From NCBI RefSeq assembly GCF_002886045.1, contig NZ_CP025791.1:1262001-1326000 (forward strand): DNA of 64,000 bases, in the 5' to 3' direction. The notes beneath the pieces are model-generated. The model worked only from the letters and a program-made list of their open reading frames with translations. It searched no databases and was not told the DNA's origin. Source of the stretch: Flavivirga eckloniae. Its GTDB lineage: Bacteria; Bacteroidota; Bacteroidia; Flavobacteriales; Flavobacteriaceae. This document shows, piece after piece, positions 8,770-64,000 of the stretch; position 1 is the stretch's first letter, and the number at the start of each line of letters is the position of its first letter. A program made the translations under genes and the position numbers.

Positions 8770-8968
8770 TTAGTTGGCAGTGATAAGTTTCAGTTGGCAG
8801 TCTCAGCAACCAAAAACCAACAACCAGCAACCAACAACCAGTAACCAACAACCAGTAATCAGTAATCAGTAATCAGTAATCAGTAATCAAAATAAAAAAC
8901 CAATGTCATTCAGAGCAAAGCGAAGAATCTCACTTTTAACTTTTAACTTTTAACTTTTAACTTTTAAC
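8770..8968. repeat. Compound heptanucleotide tandem array inside the MoxR-DUF58 operon
   Basis: The spacer is almost entirely tandem 7-bp words. From about 8803 to 8852 units of the type CAACCAA/CAACCAG repeat. From 8853 to 8887 CAGTAAT occurs five times without error. From 8933 to 8967 CTTTTAA occurs five times without error, ending 6 bp before the DUF58 start codon. The left end (8769-8807), read on the minus strand, contains AACTGAA/CACTGCC-type heptamers like those near 20.98, 33.2 and 63.9 kb. Between two arrays (8901-8932) lies a copy of the common GTCATTC...GCGAAGAATCTC repeat. Confidence 0.9.
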
Positions 8969-8973
8969 AAACC

Positions 8974-10305
8974 TTGAAATTATTTAAACCATTCTACATA
9001 CAACCACGTTTTTTCTACGCCGGTATCGGTATCGTAGTATTGTTTGCTTTAAGTTATTTCATTCCGCTACTATTTAATGTTGCGCAACTGTCTATATTAG
9101 TCCTCATTCTTCTCTTCTTTTTAGATCTTCTAATTGTGTTTATAGGAAGAAAAAAACTTGAAGCTACCAGAGTACTGCCAGATAAGTTTTCTAATGGAGA
9201 TAAAAATCAAATAACACTCGATATTAGGAATAACTACCCTATTTCGGTTTATTTGGAAATTATTGATGAGATACCAGAACAGTTTCAAGTTAGGGACTTT
9301 AAAATTAAAGAGCATATCGCTCCTAATAAATCCAAATCGGTTCTTTACCATTTAAAGCCAACCGAACGGGGCGAATATCACTTCGGAAATTTAAACATCT
9401 ATGTATCTTCTATTATAAACTTGGTGGCAAAACGCTTTACATTCAACCATGGAGACATGGTACCAACTTACCCTAGTTTTAAGCAATTAAAGAAGTTCGA
9501 ACTCTTAAACATTAATAAGAATTCGTTGGAATACGGACTTAAAAAAGTAAGGCGACTTGGTCATTCCATGGAATTTGAGCAAATTAAGGAGTATGTTTTA
9601 GGGGACGATTTACGTACCATAAATTGGAAAGCAACAGCAAAGAAAAACCAACTGATGGTTAATCAGTTTCAAGATGAAAAATCGCAACCTGTTTATTCTA
9701 TTATAGATAAAGGTCGTATAATGAAAATGCCTTTTAACGGCTTAAGCCTTTTAGATTATGCCATTAATGCCGCCCTTGTAATTAGTAATGTTGTTTTAAA
9801 GAAACATGATAAGGCAGGCATGTTTTCATTTTCTAAACACATAGACAATGTTGTTGTAGCCGAAAAAAGAAGCTCGCAAATGCAGCTAATTTTAGAATCA
9901 CTTTACAATGTTAAGACAGACTTTTTTGAAAGTGATTTTAGCAGATTATATGGCAGTATAAAGCGTCATATTACGCACAGAAGCCTTATTTTAATGTACA
10001 CCAATTTTGAGACGTTGGATGGCTTAAACAGGCAATTACCCTATTTAAAAGCCATTTCTAAAAGTCATATGCTTGTTGTTATTTTCTTTAAAAATACCGA
10101 GCTTGATAATTTAATTAACGAAAAGGCAGAAACGGTGCAACAAGTTTATGATAAAGTTATTGCCGAAAAATTTGCATTTGAAAAGCGTTTGATTGTTAAC
10201 GAATTGAAAAAGTATGGTATCTATTCCATATTAACTACACCAGAAAATCTTACCATAGATACTATTAATAAGTACTTGGAAATAAAAGCACGTGGCTTGC
10301 TTTAG
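8974..10305 (+). CDS. DUF58 domain-containing protein
   Basis: The 443-residue protein (TTG start) has two N-terminal membrane segments (about residues 14-55), a beta-rich periplasmic-like region, and the DUF58 signature at about residues 205-225 (GDDLRTINWKATAKKNQLMVNQF), which opens a von Willebrand A-like domain. DUF58 proteins are regular partners of MoxR ATPases. The gene belongs with the upstream four genes by function, though a repeat array now separates it from moxR and may carry its own start region. Confidence 0.87.
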   Translation: MKLFKPFYIQPRFFYAGIGIVVLFALSYFIPLLFNVAQLSILVLILLFFLDLLIVFIGRKKLEATRVLPDKFSNGDKNQITLDIRNNYPISVYLEIIDEIPEQFQVRDFKIKEHIAPNKSKSVLYHLKPTERGEYHFGNLNIYVSSIINLVAKRFTFNHGDMVPTYPSFKQLKKFELLNINKNSLEYGLKKVRRLGHSMEFEQIKEYVLGDDLRTINWKATAKKNQLMVNQFQDEKSQPVYSIIDKGRIMKMPFNGLSLLDYAINAALVISNVVLKKHDKAGMFSFSKHIDNVVVAEKRSSQMQLILESLYNVKTDFFESDFSRLYGSIKRHITHRSLILMYTNFETLDGLNRQLPYLKAISKSHMLVVIFFKNTELDNLINEKAETVQQVYDKVIAEKFAFEKRLIVNELKKYGIYSILTTPENLTIDTINKYLEIKARGLL

Positions 10306-20615: not shown

Positions 20616-21111
20616 TGTTCTAATTTTTAAGAAAGTGCAAAGATAACGAGGTTTTACTAATTAAGAATTATGAATTATGAATTTTATCACAAAGAGGTTC
20701 TCAAAGTGACGTCGAGATACGTAAAGCTGTTTCTCTAATATTGGGCTATATATACCTTTTTAAGAAAAAACATTGCTCTTTTTTTGACACGAATTTCACT
20801 AATTAGCGCGAATGCTTGAATATTAAATACTGCAAACCGTAAATTTATCGGTGAATTTTTCTCGCGAAGGCGTGAAGGCACAAAGGAAGTAATGGAAACT
20901 TACTGAAAACTACGACTGTTCAACTGCCCCTTGTTTACTAACCCCTTCTTCTCCCTTAGACACAAATAAACTACTGTTTACTGAACACTGCCAACTGAAC
21001 ACTGAAAATACAAACCCAAACTGTTTTTTCTCGCGAAGTCACTGAGACGCTAAGAAACCAAAATTAAACTGTTGGACTGCTTACTGAATACTGAACACTA
21101 ACAACTGAGCA
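20616..21111. repeat. Repeat-rich intergenic region between the PPIase gene and recQ
   Basis: No gene is seen in these 496 bp. They hold a short heptamer array (AAGAATT, ATGAATT, ATGAATT at 20663-20683), one copy of the GACACGAATTTCACTAATT repeat (20786-20813), two TCTCGCGAAG-type repeats (20861-20886 and 21029-21057) and NACTGAA heptamer arrays (20972-21006 and 21067-21116). Confidence 0.85.
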
Positions 21112-21116
21112 CTAAT
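20972..21116. repeat. NACTGAA heptamer arrays reaching into the recQ stop codon
   Basis: Five consecutive heptamers occupy 20972-21006 (TACTGTT, TACTGAA, CACTGCC, AACTGAA, CACTGAA). After a TCTCGCGAAG-type repeat, heptamers resume at 21067 and stay in phase from 21082 (TACTGAA, TACTGAA, CACTAAC, AACTGAG, CACTAAT). The recQ stop codon (21112-21114 on the minus strand) is formed inside the last unit. Confidence 0.9.
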
Positions 21117-23316
21117 TAGCCACTTCGCTAATAAACTTAATACGATACAAACGCAGTTCTTCATGATCATAATCGCCATCAAACTCTTCAATCGCATCAT
21201 CAATTTTATCAGATTCAGATTCCATAAAATAATCATGAATTTCTTCTTGCTGATCTTCATCCAGAATATCATCAATCCAATAACTAATATTCAATTTAGT
21301 ACCAGAATAGACAATAGCTTCCATTTCTTTAATGAAATCTTCCATAGACATTCCTTTTGAGGATGCTATATCGTCTAAAGGCAATTTTCTGTCTATATTT
21401 TGAATGATATACAATTTATTGGCCGAATTGGTTCCAGTTGATTTTACAACTAAATCGTCTGGACGAACAATATCATTTTCTTCAACATAAGTAGAAATTA
21501 ATGCTACGAAATCTTTTCCATATTTTTTAGCTTTACCTTCTCCTACACCATGAACATTTGCTAACTCAGCCAAGTTAATTGGATATTTTAAGGCCATATC
21601 TTCTAGCGAAGGGTCTTGAAATATAACAAATGGAGGTACTCCTAATTTCTTTGCATTCTTTTTACGCAAATCCTTAAGCATCCCCATTAACACTTCGTCT
21701 GCTACTGCTCCACCTCCTTTTGTTGCTGTAATAACTGTACCATCTTCTTGCTCTCCTTCATATATATGGTCTTCCGTCATCATAAACGACACAGGATTTT
21801 TTATATAAGATTTACCAGCATCACTTAGTTTAATAACACCATACGTTTCAATATCTTTTCTAAGATAACCAGCAACCAATAACTGTCTTAACAAAGCCAT
21901 CCAGTATTTATTGTCCTTGCCTTTACCTTTTCCAAAAAATGGCTGTTCATTGGTTTTATGGGAGTTGATTAAAGCATTTTCTTTACCAACTATAACATTT
22001 ACTAAATCTTTAGACTTATACTTTTCGTTAGTTAGTCCTATGGTTTCCAATAATATTGCGGCATCTTCTTTAGCTTCACGCTTCTTTTTTGGGAATCTAA
22101 CATTATCGTCCATGTCGCCACCTTCGCCGGTTGCATTATCAAACTCTTCTCCAAAATAATGTAAAATAAATTTTCTTCTGGAAATAGATGTTTCTGCAAA
22201 AGCAATCACTTCCTGTAATAATGCATGTCCAATTTCTTGTTCTGCTACAGGTTTACCAGACATGAATTTTTCTAATTTCTCAATGTCCTTATAAGCATAG
22301 TACGCCAAACAATGGCCTTCGCCTCCATCACGTCCTGCTCTACCAGTTTCCTGATAATAACTTTCTATACTTTTTGGAATATCATGATGGATTACAAAAC
22401 GCACATCGGGCTTGTCTATCCCCATACCAAAAGCAATTGTGGCTACCACTACATCTACATCTTCCATTAAGAATTTATCTTGGTAGCTGGATCTCGATTT
22501 TGCATCTAGTCCTGCATGGTATGGTACTGCCTTTATACCATTTACTTGTAATACCTGAGCGAGCTCTTCAACTCGTTTTCTACTTAAGCAATACACAATA
22601 CCCGACTTGCCTTCGTTTTGTTTTATAAAACGAATAATATCTGCATCTACATTTTTTGTCTTTGGTCTAACCTCATAATATAAATTAGGTCTATTAAAAG
22701 ATGCTTTGAAAGTCTTGGCATTATTTATACCTAAATTCTTTATAATATCTTCCTGAACCTTTGGTGTTGCGGTGGCAGTTAGACCTATAATTGGAATATT
22801 ATCGCCTATTCTACTAATAATATGACGCAAATTTCTATACTCCGGTCTAAAATCGTGCCCCCATTCACTAATACAGTGAGCCTCGTCGATGGCCATAAAA
22901 GACACCTTTACAGATCGCAAAAACTCAACGTTTTCCTCTTTAGTTAAAGATTCCGGAGCAACATATAATAGTTTAGTTACACCGTTTATAATATCTTCCT
23001 TAACACGTTTAACCTCGGTTTTATTTAAAGAAGAATTTAAAACGTGTGCTATGCCCTCTTCGTTAGACACACCTCTTATCGCGTCAACTTGGTTTTTCAT
23101 TAGAGCTATTAATGGCGATACCACAATAGCTGTTCCATCTTGCATTAATGCTGGCAACTGGTAACATAATGATTTCCCTCCTCCAGTTGGCATTATTACA
23201 AACGTATGATTTCCTGATAAAATACTTTCTACGACATCTTCTTGCAAACCCTTAAACTTATTGAAACCAAAGTTTCTTTTAAGCGCAGAGTGCAAGTCAC
23301 TTTTTGCTACTAACAT
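21112..23316 (-). CDS. recQ: RecQ-family ATP-dependent DNA helicase (zinc-site cysteines absent)
   Basis: The 734-residue protein has the RecQ helicase core: Walker A PTGGGKS at 43-49, DEAH box at 144-147, FRPEYRNL, GLTATA, and motif VI QETGRAGRDG near 322-331. A winged-helix region and an HRDC-like domain (LAELANVHGVGEGKAKKYG) follow, then an acidic tail. The zinc-binding segment has lost its cysteines: residues 375-405 read ETSISRRKFILHYFGEEFD then NATGEGGDMDD, where E. coli RecQ has four cysteines. It unwinds 3'-5' in recombinational repair. The 3' end is formed by a heptamer repeat array. Confidence 0.92.
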   Translation of the reverse strand: MLVAKSDLHSALKRNFGFNKFKGLQEDVVESILSGNHTFVIMPTGGGKSLCYQLPALMQDGTAIVVSPLIALMKNQVDAIRGVSNEEGIAHVLNSSLNKTEVKRVKEDIINGVTKLLYVAPESLTKEENVEFLRSVKVSFMAIDEAHCISEWGHDFRPEYRNLRHIISRIGDNIPIIGLTATATPKVQEDIIKNLGINNAKTFKASFNRPNLYYEVRPKTKNVDADIIRFIKQNEGKSGIVYCLSRKRVEELAQVLQVNGIKAVPYHAGLDAKSRSSYQDKFLMEDVDVVVATIAFGMGIDKPDVRFVIHHDIPKSIESYYQETGRAGRDGGEGHCLAYYAYKDIEKLEKFMSGKPVAEQEIGHALLQEVIAFAETSISRRKFILHYFGEEFDNATGEGGDMDDNVRFPKKKREAKEDAAILLETIGLTNEKYKSKDLVNVIVGKENALINSHKTNEQPFFGKGKGKDNKYWMALLRQLLVAGYLRKDIETYGVIKLSDAGKSYIKNPVSFMMTEDHIYEGEQEDGTVITATKGGGAVADEVLMGMLKDLRKKNAKKLGVPPFVIFQDPSLEDMALKYPINLAELANVHGVGEGKAKKYGKDFVALISTYVEENDIVRPDDLVVKSTGTNSANKLYIIQNIDRKLPLDDIASSKGMSMEDFIKEMEAIVYSGTKLNISYWIDDILDEDQQEEIHDYFMESESDKIDDAIEEFDGDYDHEELRLYRIKFISEVAN

Positions 23317-33047: not shown

Positions 33048-33156
33048 TGCAGAAGTCTCGTGAGTAAGCTATAATCATGAATATTTTATGACCTTGCTAA
33101 GATGCAAGACGCGAAGCTTATAATAGCCCTCATCTGTAAATCAACCGATTCTCTCA

Positions 33157-33297
33157 TACTGAATACTGATTGCTGAAAACTGAATACTTTATAATCTCGC
33201 AAAGGCGCTAAGATCATTGTACCAATCATGAGCAAATCAACTGATTTATTTATACTGATAACTGAAAAACACTGAACACCGAACACTGAACACTAAA
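33157..33297. repeat. NACTGAA heptamer arrays abutting the stop codon of the polysaccharide operon
   Basis: Units TACTGAA, TACTGAT, TGCTGAA, AACTGAA, TACTTTA fill 33157-33191. After a TCTCGCAAAGGCGCTAAG repeat (33195-33212) and some unique sequence, TACTGAT, AACTGAA, then CACTGAA, CACCGAA, CACTGAA, CACTAAA fill 33253-33297 with one 3-bp insertion. The last unit touches the minus-strand stop codon at 33298-33300. Confidence 0.9.
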
Positions 33298-34689
33298 CTA
33301 CTGCCCTCTAAAGTAAATCATGGTACTTATCGTTTTTACCAAAATGTTTAAATCTAAAAAGAAGCTTTTACGTTTTATGTAGTACAGATCGTACTGTAAT
33401 TTTAGTAAGCTATCATCAACAGAGGAACCATATCTGGTTTTAACCTGTGCCCAACCTGTAAGACCTGGTTTAACGATATGACGTGTTTCATAAAAAGGTA
33501 GCATTTGCGACAATTCTTTAACAAAATATGGACGTTCTGGTCTAGGGCCAATTAAACTCATTTCCCCTTTTAGTACGTTAATGAATTGAGGCATTTCATC
33601 TATTCTCGAATATCTTAAAAACTTACCAAAGGAAGTAATTCTTTTATCTCCTTTTTTAGCCCAAACTGCACCTGATTTTTCTGCGTTTTTAATCATGGTT
33701 CTGTATTTCAGAATCTTAAAAACCTTGCCGTTTTTGCCTATTCTCTCTTGAGAGTAAATTAGAGGACCTCGATTCGCAATAATATTCCCTAACAAAATGA
33801 GTGGTAGGAAAAATATCCCTACAAAAACTCCAACTATGGAAACAAAAATGTCGAAAAAACGATGAAAAAATAGATACAATTTATTTTGGTTACTTCTACT
33901 AAATGGGAAATATTTATAAAAATCCTTCCCAACAAATTGTACAGGAATACGCTGTGCTAATTCCTCATACACTTGTGTATATTCTTTTATTGGAAAACCT
34001 TCTTCCAGAAGTGATATAAGCGAATAATAAATCTCTGAAGTAATAGATTCTGAATTATAGCTTGCCACTACAATTTCTGATATGTTTTCATCCTTAATTA
34101 CCTGTCGTATTTGACTGGGCTTATATTCTGGTATTGCATTAAATTTAACAGATTCCATACTGTTTAACTCGCAGTTAATAAACCCTTTTATTTTATAATT
34201 AGGATCCGAATTATTAAATGCTTCAACAATAGTTTCAATATTAGACGTTTCTCCAATTATGAGTACTTTTTTATAAAATCTAGGCGAGATGATAAAAGTT
34301 ATATAGGCAAGCCTCCATAGAAATAGAGCTATGAATATTGCAAAATAAAAATACAAGATTTGTAAACGATTATCTGGTAATACTGGCGTAAAAAATGGTG
34401 TTAAAAAGTAAAATAGAACGGTTATAGACACCGTAAAAACAATACTGGTGAAGATCTTATCAATCTTACTGGACTTCTGTAAATCATAAAGTTCAAAGAT
34501 AGTACCGAATATCCAAATGTATAAAACAAGAATAAGAATCCAAGTCCAGTTTTCTTTTTTGATCGTAAAATAATCAAAATCAAAGGTGTTGCCCACAAAA
34601 TAAAGCACCAATAGTATTGAAAAAATATCTAAAATGCGTAATAAAATTTTACGCTCAGACAGGTTGAAATGAATGCTTTGGTTAGTCAT
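33298..34689 (-). CDS. Undecaprenyl-phosphate sugar-phosphate transferase (WcaJ/WbaP-like)
   Basis: The 463-residue protein has four or five N-terminal membrane segments, a CoA-binding/Rossmann-like middle region (KKVLIIGETSNIETIVEAFNNS) and the C-terminal catalytic bacterial sugar transferase domain: LKYRTMIKNAEK, RYSRIDEMPQFINVLKGEMSLIGPRPERP, KPGLTGWAQV. It transfers a hexose-1-phosphate to undecaprenyl phosphate, starting glycan assembly. It is the last gene of the polysaccharide locus; a 54-bp gap separates it from the upstream glycosyltransferase. Confidence 0.93.
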   Translation of the reverse strand: MTNQSIHFNLSERKILLRILDIFSILLVLYFVGNTFDFDYFTIKKENWTWILILVLYIWIFGTIFELYDLQKSSKIDKIFTSIVFTVSITVLFYFLTPFFTPVLPDNRLQILYFYFAIFIALFLWRLAYITFIISPRFYKKVLIIGETSNIETIVEAFNNSDPNYKIKGFINCELNSMESVKFNAIPEYKPSQIRQVIKDENISEIVVASYNSESITSEIYYSLISLLEEGFPIKEYTQVYEELAQRIPVQFVGKDFYKYFPFSRSNQNKLYLFFHRFFDIFVSIVGVFVGIFFLPLILLGNIIANRGPLIYSQERIGKNGKVFKILKYRTMIKNAEKSGAVWAKKGDKRITSFGKFLRYSRIDEMPQFINVLKGEMSLIGPRPERPYFVKELSQMLPFYETRHIVKPGLTGWAQVKTRYGSSVDDSLLKLQYDLYYIKRKSFFLDLNILVKTISTMIYFRGQ

Positions 34690-61850: not shown

Positions 61851-61903
61851 ACTTATGATCTATTTTTTAGTTTTTTATCCGTTATTTGCAAGAAAAATAT
61901 CTC

Positions 61904-63763
61904 TTGAATTATTTAACAGTTGAAAACATATCAAAATCCTACGGAGAGCTAACACTTTTTGAAGACATTTCCTTTAGCGTACATAAAGATCAGAAAATTG
62001 CTTTTGTTGCAAAAAACGGAACTGGCAAAACCTCCATCTTAAATATTATTTCGGGTGATGATGAATCCGATTCTGGCTCTGTAGTCTATAGAAAAGGTAT
62101 TGCCGTATCGTTTCTATCTCAAGACCCTAAATTTGATGATAAGCTAACTATTGAAGAAACCATTTTTGCGAGCGACAACCCTATTTTAAAGGTTATTGCC
62201 AATTACGAAAAAGCACTCTTAAACCCAGATGACACTGATGCATACCAAACTGCTTTCGAACAGATGGAACAACATCAGGCATGGGATTTTGAAACACTAT
62301 ACAAACAAATCCTTTTTAAACTAAAACTGGATAATTTAAGCCAAAAAGTAAGCACACTTTCTGGTGGACAAAAAAAACGACTATCGCTTGCCAATGCCTT
62401 AATAAATAAACCCGATTTGTTAATACTAGACGAGCCTACAAACCATTTGGATCTGGAAATGATTGAGTGGCTGGAAGCTTTTTTTGCCAAGGAAAACATT
62501 ACACTGTTTATGGTAACACACGATCGCTATTTTTTAGAACGTGTTTGCAACGAAATTATAGAATTAGACGAAGGCAAGCTATACAGTTATAAAGGTAATT
62601 ATTCCTATTACCTAGAAAAACGAGAAGCAAGAATAGAACGTGAATCTGTTGAATTAGGCAAAGCAAAACAACTGTTTAAAAAAGAATTGTCCTGGATGCG
62701 CCGACAGCCAAAAGCCAGAACAACCAAATCGAAATCTCGAATCGACGATTTTAAAGATATAAAGCATCGTGCCCACCAACGTAGAAACGATCATGAAGTT
62801 CAACTTGAATTAAACATGGAACGTCTCGGCAGTAAAATTTTAGAATTTCATAAAGTATCAAAAGCATTTAAAGACAAGACCATACTTGACAAGTTCGAAT
62901 ACACGTTCCAAAAAGGAGAACGTGCCGGTATAATAGGTAAAAATGGTACAGGAAAAACGACCTTTCTAAATATATTAACCCAAACAGCACAGCCAGATTC
63001 CGGTAAAGTAGTAAAGGGAGATACGGTAAAGTTCGGATACTACACCCAAAATGGAATTACTATAAAACCCGAACAAAAAGTTATAGACGTTATTAGAGAG
63101 TTCGGAGACTATATTCCACTAAAAAAGGGCAGACAAATTAGCGCACAGCAACTTTTAGAACGTTTTTTATTCAGTAGAAAAAAGCAATACGATTTTGTTG
63201 AAAAATTAAGCGGAGGTGAACGCAAACGCCTGTATTTATGTACTGTTTTAATTCAGAATCCAAACTTCTTGATTCTTGATGAGCCTACTAACGATTTAGA
63301 TATCGTAACACTTAATGTACTCGAAAGTTTTCTTCTGGATTTTCCCGGTTGTGTTATTGTCGTATCTCACGACCGTTATTTTATGGATAAGGTTGTAGAC
63401 CACCTTTTTGTATTTAAAGGCGAAGGCGTTATAGAGGATTTCCCAGGAAATTATACAGACTATAGAGTTTACGAAGATAGTCAGCCTGTCGTTTCAAATG
63501 TACAGGAAGATAAAAAGGATAAAAATGCCTGGAAGAAAAACGAGTCCAAACTATCATATAACGAAGAAAAAGAGCTTAAAAACATTGAAAGTAAATTAAA
63601 ATCGTTGGCATTCGATAAGAAAGAACTAGAACATAAATTCAATAATCCAGATCTTACACAAGATGACATAAATAAGTTATCTGATGAATTACAAAAAATT
63701 ATAGATACTATTGAAGCTAAAGAAGAACGTTGGTTTGAGTTGTCTGCTAAACTTGAAGATTGA
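61904..63763 (+). CDS. ABC-F family ATPase (Uup/EttA-like)
   Basis: The protein from the preferred TTG start (NYLTVENISKSYGELTLF) is 619 residues; another TTG six codons upstream (61886) is less likely. It has two ABC ATPase domains without membrane segments (Walker A GTGKTS and GKNGTGKTT, signatures LSGGQKKR and LSGGERKR), the ABC-F linker (KELSWMRRQPKARTTKSKSRID), and a C-terminal coiled-coil (ELKNIESKLKSLAFDKKELEHKF) as in Uup. ABC-F proteins act on ribosomes or branched DNA. It is divergent from wza. Confidence 0.92.
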   Translation: MNYLTVENISKSYGELTLFEDISFSVHKDQKIAFVAKNGTGKTSILNIISGDDESDSGSVVYRKGIAVSFLSQDPKFDDKLTIEETIFASDNPILKVIANYEKALLNPDDTDAYQTAFEQMEQHQAWDFETLYKQILFKLKLDNLSQKVSTLSGGQKKRLSLANALINKPDLLILDEPTNHLDLEMIEWLEAFFAKENITLFMVTHDRYFLERVCNEIIELDEGKLYSYKGNYSYYLEKREARIERESVELGKAKQLFKKELSWMRRQPKARTTKSKSRIDDFKDIKHRAHQRRNDHEVQLELNMERLGSKILEFHKVSKAFKDKTILDKFEYTFQKGERAGIIGKNGTGKTTFLNILTQTAQPDSGKVVKGDTVKFGYYTQNGITIKPEQKVIDVIREFGDYIPLKKGRQISAQQLLERFLFSRKKQYDFVEKLSGGERKRLYLCTVLIQNPNFLILDEPTNDLDIVTLNVLESFLLDFPGCVIVVSHDRYFMDKVVDHLFVFKGEGVIEDFPGNYTDYRVYEDSQPVVSNVQEDKKDKNAWKKNESKLSYNEEKELKNIESKLKSLAFDKKELEHKFNNPDLTQDDINKLSDELQKIIDTIEAKEERWFELSAKLED

Positions 63764-63852
63764 TTTAGTTATTTCACAGATAATCAAAGAGTTAACACTG
63801 AGACACACTAAGGTTTAGTTTATCCTCGCTAAAACGCCAAGACATGAAACGT

Positions 63853-63929
63853 CACTGAATACCGAACACTGAACACTGAATACTGAATACTGAATACTGC
63901 AAACCAAACACTGAACACTGAACACTAAA
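63853..63929 (+). repeat. Perfectly phased 11-unit heptamer array ending at a start codon
   Basis: Eleven consecutive 7-bp units without a gap: CACTGAA, TACCGAA, CACTGAA, CACTGAA, TACTGAA, TACTGAA, TACTGCA, AACCAAA, CACTGAA, CACTGAA, CACTAAA. The next three bases are the ATG of the following gene. A CTCGCTAAAACGCCAAGAC repeat (63825-63843) lies just before it. Confidence 0.93.
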
Positions 63930-64000
63930 ATGTATCAAATCATTCAATACATAAAATTTTTAGTAAGGTCTACCAATCAACACGGTGTGCACTCTCCCTT
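63930..64000 (+). CDS. N-terminus of a SAM-dependent methyltransferase-like protein (runs off window)
   Basis: Only 23 codons are visible, reading MYQIIQYIKFLVRSTNQHGV then HSPF. The STNQHGVHSPF motif is characteristic of the N-terminus of a flavobacterial class I methyltransferase group. The start codon directly follows a heptamer array, so the leader is repeat DNA. Confidence 0.6.
   Translation, partial: MYQIIQYIKFLVRSTNQHGVHSP

Follow-up and report, generated by a model that had tools for sequence, protein, structure and literature searches.

Cyanobacteria, Calothrix among them, carry STRR heptanucleotides, which are arranged in tandem like the repeats described here. In the 2007 work of Mrazek, heptanucleotides were reportedly the commonest class among longer repeat units, and slippage favoring 7-bp steps is said to have been proposed; strand polarity is absent from the citations at hand of that work on long simple sequence repeats.

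TAACTGA repeats are described in Beggiatoaceae, Cyanobacteria, and some Bacteroidetes (MacGregor 2015, PMC4679880). The same paper documents arrays of heptamers from Gramella forsetii, Aequorivita sublithincola, and Elizabethkingia anophelis, with TAACTGA arrays accompanied by other heptamers in the first two; in three of the four Gramella/Aequorivita array sets, the spacer of a close relative is shorter and has no obvious repeats. These arrays are the flavobacterial counterpart that the sequence-only reading of our region did not know of. The arrays of Flavivirga eckloniae resemble the TAACTGA repeats in their 7-bp period and intergenic location, the latter often being a few bases 5′ of a start codon in forward orientation and sometimes 3′ of a stop codon in reversed orientation. 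As with TAACTGA, for which 7-nt length steps are reported between two Cyanothece strains, an array may be absent in close relatives. TAACTGA is also a rotation of ACTG plus ATA and thus has the same core. Unlike it, the main Flavivirga word is ACTGAAC/T, its triplet is more variable, and stop-side arrays outnumber start-side arrays 14 to 2 in our random sample of the own genome (compared with PMC4679880).

In Xanthomonas and Nostoc, GGGNATC repeats are reported to occupy the non-coding strand immediately 5′ of starts and the coding strand immediately 3′ of stops (Rehm 2015, PMC4692102). They share with the present arrays the 7-bp period, the variable length, and a noncoding location that related species mostly keep between the same genes. 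The strand rule is also the same when TTCAGTG, the G/T-richer strand, is taken as the counterpart of GGGNATC. However, GGGNATC forms G-quadruplexes in vitro, whereas the Flavivirga TTCAGTG has no G-tract (compared with PMC4692102).

Heptamer arrays and the excess of period 7

The window, by which we mean the whole 64-kb stretch of DNA analyzed, contains near its end a heptamer array on the forward strand at 63853..63929. As proposed from the letters alone, it consists of 11 in-phase units followed by ATG; exactly NACTGAA is found in 7 of the 11. The unit order is CACTGAA, TACCGAA, CACTGAA, CACTGAA, TACTGAA, TACTGAA, TACTGCA, AACCAAA, CACTGAA, CACTGAA, and CACTAAA, the last lying directly 5′ of the ATG. 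Scored by Tandem Repeats Finder, the array reached 85 with a period of 7 and 98 with a period of 21. A 256-aa methyltransferase-like frame begins at the ATG (63930..64000, + strand, running past the window), and its first residues are shared by congener relatives; the closest named relatives of the protein, with 80-85 percent identity, are from Flavivirga species. An ABC-F-type ATPase gene (61886..63763, + strand) lies 5′ of the array spacer, and the frames beyond the methyltransferase-like gene appear to encode a cobalamin adenosyltransferase and SecA, all these names being read from sequence.

The claim that comparable arrays occur elsewhere in the window held for 8770-8968, where Tandem Repeats Finder detected three period-7 words on the + strand: CAACCAG/CAACCAA (8807..8854), CAGTAAT (8853..8889), and ACTTTTA (8932..8968), the last shortly 5′ of a reading frame at 8974. 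The regions 20972-21116 and 33157-33297 were only partly comparable, consisting of short ACTG chains with unrelated sequence between them. In the chain listing, these comprised, again on the + strand, five units at 20973..21007, six units at 21076..21117, a short, degenerate chain at 33158..33185, and four units at 33271..33298. The last unit of the six-unit chain overlaps the TAG stop of a minus-strand frame (21112-23316), and the four-unit chain touches the stop of another (33298-34689).

We surveyed periodicity in 60 stretches of 20 kb, distributed evenly over the own genome, together with the 64-kb window (1.264 Mb in all), using a threshold of 18 of 21 matches and counting every array under the smallest period that fits it. 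Seventeen noncoding arrays had period 7, compared with 0 at periods 5, 6, 8, 9, and 10, 3 at period 4, and 5 at period 21; 6 of the 17 fall inside the window. Runs at this threshold in the window occupied six regions at lag 7, recurred at the multiples 14, 21, and 28, appeared a single time at each of 12, 18, and 23, and were absent at lags 3-6, 8-11, and 13. For the first 800 kb, a Markov control produced 1 match by chance at period 7, compared with 7 observed. In 20 stretches (400 kb) of the congener G001, two noncoding period-7 arrays were found and 0 at periods 5, 6, 8, and 9. In related species, 80 named loci (1.23 Mb) contained 39 noncoding arrays of period 7, 12 of period 8, 3 of period 6, 1 of period 9, and 0 of periods 5 and 10, several of the 39 being orthologous copies, notably of an AACTTTT array behind the methyltransferase.

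When averaged over intergenic bases, lag identity was barely higher at 7 (0.3058) than at 6 (0.3052) and 8 (0.2955), and was 0.3062 at 2; the period-7 excess therefore sits in discrete arrays. Genome-wide, ACTGAANACTGAANACTGAA with at most two mismatches was found at 223 places, versus 3 for the reversed pattern, and the heptamer pattern was matched in 12 of 12 genus genomes, own included. These results confirm the heptamer arrays, show that they occur throughout the genome, and place them in a known class. The suspected excess of 7 over 6 and 8 is thus borne out and large, at 17 versus 0 in the own genome and 39 versus 3 and 12 in the related-species loci. The sequence-only reading took a strict period with several words to suggest one generating mechanism rather than random slippage. 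A single period with several words, together with the excess of 7, does fit one process, but the contrast with slippage is weak because slippage favoring 7-bp steps also gives a strict period with many words.

Words and their turnover at fixed sites

Own chains of at least three units consist of a core, ACTG, and a variable triplet. Among 203 units, the triplet was AAC in 76, AAT in 18, ATT in 17, AAA in 12, ATC in 11, and ATA in 2, with others making up the rest, in a count that presupposes the ACTG core by construction. In an independent test on 55 middle units flanked by identical neighbors, mismatches were found at 4 of 220 core positions versus 14 of 165 triplet positions (p 0.003). TAACTGA in direct repeat was not found as the word of the own chains, ATA being the triplet in those 2 of the 203 units; ACTGATA arrays are present in other members of the family, among them G040, G099, and G323.

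A four-unit ACTG pattern was matched in 148 of 395 Bacteroidota genomes, own included. ACTG was rejected as a phylum marker because a backwards control (GTCA every 7 bases) was large in some genomes, where other words dominate. The control was abundant without ACTG in G132 (117+141 vs 0+0), G303, G112, and G190; G124, also of the Bacteroidota, had both patterns (113+88 for ACTG and 208+227 for GTCA), and the congener G006 had 59 pattern matches and 19 in the control. Elsewhere in the phylum, other heptamer words seem dominant.

We compared three gene starts in the genus group of 12 genomes, own included. Arrays of at least two units were present at the methyltransferase start in 9 of 12, at a hemW-like start in 6 of 12, and at a yheT-like start in 8 of 12, with differing lengths and variants. 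The methyltransferase spacer of G004 and the yheT-like spacer of G003, shortened by false reading frames in one extraction, were taken from other extractions. Unit numbers differ between species, and a variant unit may form a local run, as do ACCAAAC in G005 and ACCGAAC in G010. At hemW, G009 and G010 have ten units each, most of them different, between nearly identical flanks.

In the wider set, ACTG or CAGT pairs were found in the methyltransferase spacer of 11 of 76 named loci (the 80 named loci minus 4 without the upstream gene; the array of L094 was hidden by a false frame), and many of these spacers in related species have no array at all. Other words occupy the site in L103 (TTGACTG), L124 (GTTGATG), L140 (TTGTTTG), and L141 (AACTCGG), as do words of other lengths, namely the 6-base GACTGA in L112 and 8-base words in L131 and L154. 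The arrays are thus not kept base for base: units and words change while the sites persist. The different words at the methyltransferase site form a natural series on array origin and replacement in related species.

The 240-bp methyltransferase spacer of L089 and L170 contains a tandem duplication spanning the ABC-F gene end and the methyltransferase start, with GAATACTAAA 5′ of the ATG in both copies. By eye, the window spacers at 63776-63845 (approximate), 20616-21111, and 33048-33297, together with L069:6152-6486 and L086:4009-4208, are mosaics in which ACTG arrays alternate with the 8-base-period word CTTTGCGTCTTTGCGACTTAGCGAG and its variants. A CAGAGATTCACAAAG-like word was seen in the same way near the ABC-F stop, and in several of these spacers the heptamer array comes first from the gene edge and the octamer word next.

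Strand polarity at gene edges

Read on the ACTG strand, the 3′ end of an array faces a gene start or stop. Among 26 noncoding chains of the own genome (3 coding chains were set aside), the 3′ end but not the 5′ end lay within 20 bp of a boundary in 16, and the reverse was found in 0. Fourteen of the 16 were at stops of an opposite-strand gene and 2 at starts. At pattern-chosen loci of six congeners, 18 of 23 chains touched a boundary by the 3′ end only, 2 by both ends, and 0 by the 5′ end only; the 20 touching chains were at 11 stops and 9 starts. At 30 phylum loci, of which one belongs to the own genome, the corresponding numbers among 35 noncoding chains were 20, 3, and 1 (15 stops, 8 starts), after 4 coding chains were set aside and with "only" and "both" sorted by hand. 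Pooled over the own genome, one G001 array, the six congeners, and the phylum loci, the polarity was 55 to 1. The p-value of this ratio is too small because some loci are orthologous, and genes were called solely as reading frames. At L070:7050-7142, arrays lie head to head in one spacer.

Among 869 own genes, a CAGT pair followed the stop within 45 bases in 16 and an ACTG pair in 0; the 50 nt before the start contained an ACTG pair in 2 genes and a CAGT pair in a single gene. Start-side ACTG arrays have the forward orientation near the start codon, as for TAACTGA, and two such chains occur in the random own sample. The evidence for polarity is strong on the stop side and thinner on the start side. 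Plain tetramer counts made the polarity visible at own stops (ACTG 215, CAGT 106) and ran opposite to it at own starts (ACTG 100, CAGT 148). At 72 loci of other genera they showed little polarity (ACTG/CAGT 121/102 at starts and 135/150 at stops). At the eight closest loci, which are copies of one syntenic region, they gave ACTG 43 versus CAGT 5 before starts and, contrary to the rule, ACTG 17 versus CAGT 51 at stops. A neighboring gene's arrays enter these counts because 150 nt of spacer was counted.

Gene-edge base composition was rejected as an explanation for the polarity: although starts are A-rich, A and T are nearly balanced after stops, which leaves the stop side unexplained. A G/T-strand rule covering all words was not supported as general here. 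Non-ACTG arrays, many of them orthologous copies of one site, fit it in 12 of 14 cases on the stop side (within 30 bp, at a looser threshold), but split 7 versus 8, with one equal, on the start side. G-quadruplexes were excluded for the ACTG word, in which G-tracts are lacking; in 1505 bases of the CAGT strand we found three GGG runs. Because the ACTG word has no G-tracts, quadruplexes cannot be the general cause of the polarity.

The heptamer arrays of Xanthomonas and Nostoc have been discussed mainly as G-quadruplexes. Their orientation rule, seen again in Flavivirga and at phylum-wide loci with a G-tract-free word, is thereby separated from quadruplexes and becomes a testable question of directional growth, start/stop seeding, or RNA selection. 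Array direction needs a non-quadruplex cause, perhaps the way the RNA copies behave. Among the matches listed from the open-licence literature, no paper compares the strand rule of Rehm with the G-tract-free Flavivirga word. We think that the polarity of a word unable to form quadruplexes, the strand-specific RNA properties described below, and the exchange of one word for another at a fixed site are new here.

At the phylum loci L302, L306, and L314, ACTG chains end a few bases 5′ of GGGGGATTAGCTCAGC, interpreted as the first bases of a putative tRNA gene within a ribosomal RNA spacer.

Generation and orientation of the arrays

The two strands differ in codons and in predicted folding. In 1505 bases of own ACTG chains, ATG, GTG, and TTG occur 1, 1, and 3 times on the ACTG strand, with 149 stops, and 2, 91, and 19 times on the CAGT strand, with 77 stops. 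In the array at 63853-63929, all three start codons are absent from the ACTG strand, which has 3, 2, and 3 stops per frame; the opposite strand has 6 GTG and 2 TTG, with 0, 0, and 1 stops per frame. The sense RNA of this array with the first codons is predicted to be unpaired in the centroid structure, with a minimum of -2.0 kcal/mol, whereas the antisense array is predicted to fold at -12 kcal/mol versus a shuffled mean of -5.1 (z -4.0). Among own arrays of at least four units, the CAGT strand was predicted to be more stable in 15 of 20 (p 0.011); for other words, 8 comparisons were for this difference, 2 against, and 11 tied. In Flavobacterium johnsoniae, initiation is reported to be favored by low structure and by A at positions -3, -6, -12, and -13 (Baez 2019, PMC6847099); the CACTAAA before our ATG places A at -3 and -6.

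The reading we favor, tentatively and at slightly below an even chance, combines 7-bp slippage in untranslated spacers as the generator with selection on RNA as the orientation filter. The arrays would be fast-evolving 7-bp tandem repeats filling untranslated spacers beside gene starts and stops, their units gained, lost, and locally multiplied by 7-bp steps, most likely through replication slippage or unequal exchange. Selection would set the orientation that survives at each place. Before a start codon, the ACTG strand would be retained as sense because this yields an unstructured RNA with almost no ATG, GTG, or TTG, many stops, and an A-rich end that suits initiation in flavobacteria. Downstream of stops, the sense strand would be its complement, which is GU-rich and more structured. 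The data show the excess of period 7, sites that persist as their units and words change, the array polarity, and the codon and folding differences between the strands; we infer slippage as the generator, RNA-level selection as the cause of the polarity, and any benefit to the cell. The bar on the ACTG strand after stops (14 to 0) is only loosely explained by RNA selection, and our estimate was lowered from an even chance because the start side is thin. Also counted against this reading were the tetramer counts at own starts and in other genera, the many ties in folding for other words, the lower variability of the ACTG core than of the triplet, which is unexpected under plain slippage, the perfect ACTGAAC arrays at several unrelated loci, and the arrays ending before a putative tRNA gene at three phylum loci.

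The nearest rival, which we consider rather unlikely, is seeding at the boundary: arrays would grow by slippage from ACTAAA before ATG and from TAGT at a TAG stop, with no selection on the array. Since these seeds are reverse complements, polarity would follow from them. Consistent with seeding, ACTA was the last core in 13 of 32 own chains and the first in 3 of 32 (p 0.004), and TAG stops were found at 8 of 16 array-touching genes versus 161 of 869 genes overall (p 0.004). A CAGT pair followed 9 of 141 stops with TAGT nearby versus 8 of 1087 without, although TAGT may itself be a mutated array unit, which makes the argument partly circular. On the start side, the bases adjacent to the hemW ATG are nearly identical in G009 and G010 while the ten units behind them differ, and ACTAA precedes the methyltransferase ATG at 11 of 48 testable loci (9 of the 11 without an ACTG pair) versus 22 of 548 own starts. 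However, the scrambled words AATCA (21) and ATCAA (17) are as common as ACTAA before own starts genome-wide, and the start-side contrast is only 2/90 versus 1/1108.

It is improbable that the arrays are putative regulatory sites under selection, at which a protein binds ACTG every 7 bases. The ACTG core is more conserved than the triplet and is shared by the TAACTGA of other phyla, for which S1, Csp, or Csr type proteins are suggested (MacGregor 2015, PMC4679880), but relatives carry other words at the same site, and the genes neighboring arrays appear, from their predicted products, unrelated in function.

Dispersal within a mobile element, or through copying from one locus to another, is more doubtful still. 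Perfect ACTGAAC arrays recur at several loci, and those of L032 and L041 share 60 bp upstream at 93 percent identity; against this, flanks differ at other arrays, and the L032/L041 flank has only two strong genome matches, for which reason a mobile element was rejected.

Directional telomere-like repeat addition at broken ends, with the G/T-richer strand extended outwards from the gene, is very improbable: the polarity of 55 to 1, head-to-head arrays as at L070:7050-7142, and the same rule with other words reported by Rehm 2015 (PMC4692102) would fit it, but start-side arrays of other words have no G/T bias (7 vs 8), and the triplets are too variable for one template. It is hardly more than conceivable that the Bacteroidota, Xanthomonas, and Nostoc arrays, with their unrelated words, follow a common strand rule because one conserved process lays units from the gene edge outwards on the G/T-richer strand, in the manner of telomere addition at chromosome ends. 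If so, arrays of neighboring genes would meet head to head (e.g., L070:7050-7142), and polarity would be a record of synthesis direction, caused by neither quadruplexes nor regulation.

L032 and L041, near 673 kb and 3900 kb of the own genome, have long perfect ACTGAAC arrays at two unrelated genes and an inverted TTATTAA...TTAATAA in a longer shared flank, a weaker version of which precedes an mpl-like gene in L042. In L044, near 4200 kb of the own genome, a GAAGATA heptamer array lies right at the stop of a putative sigma factor gene, and an ACTGAAC array is found in the same spacer.
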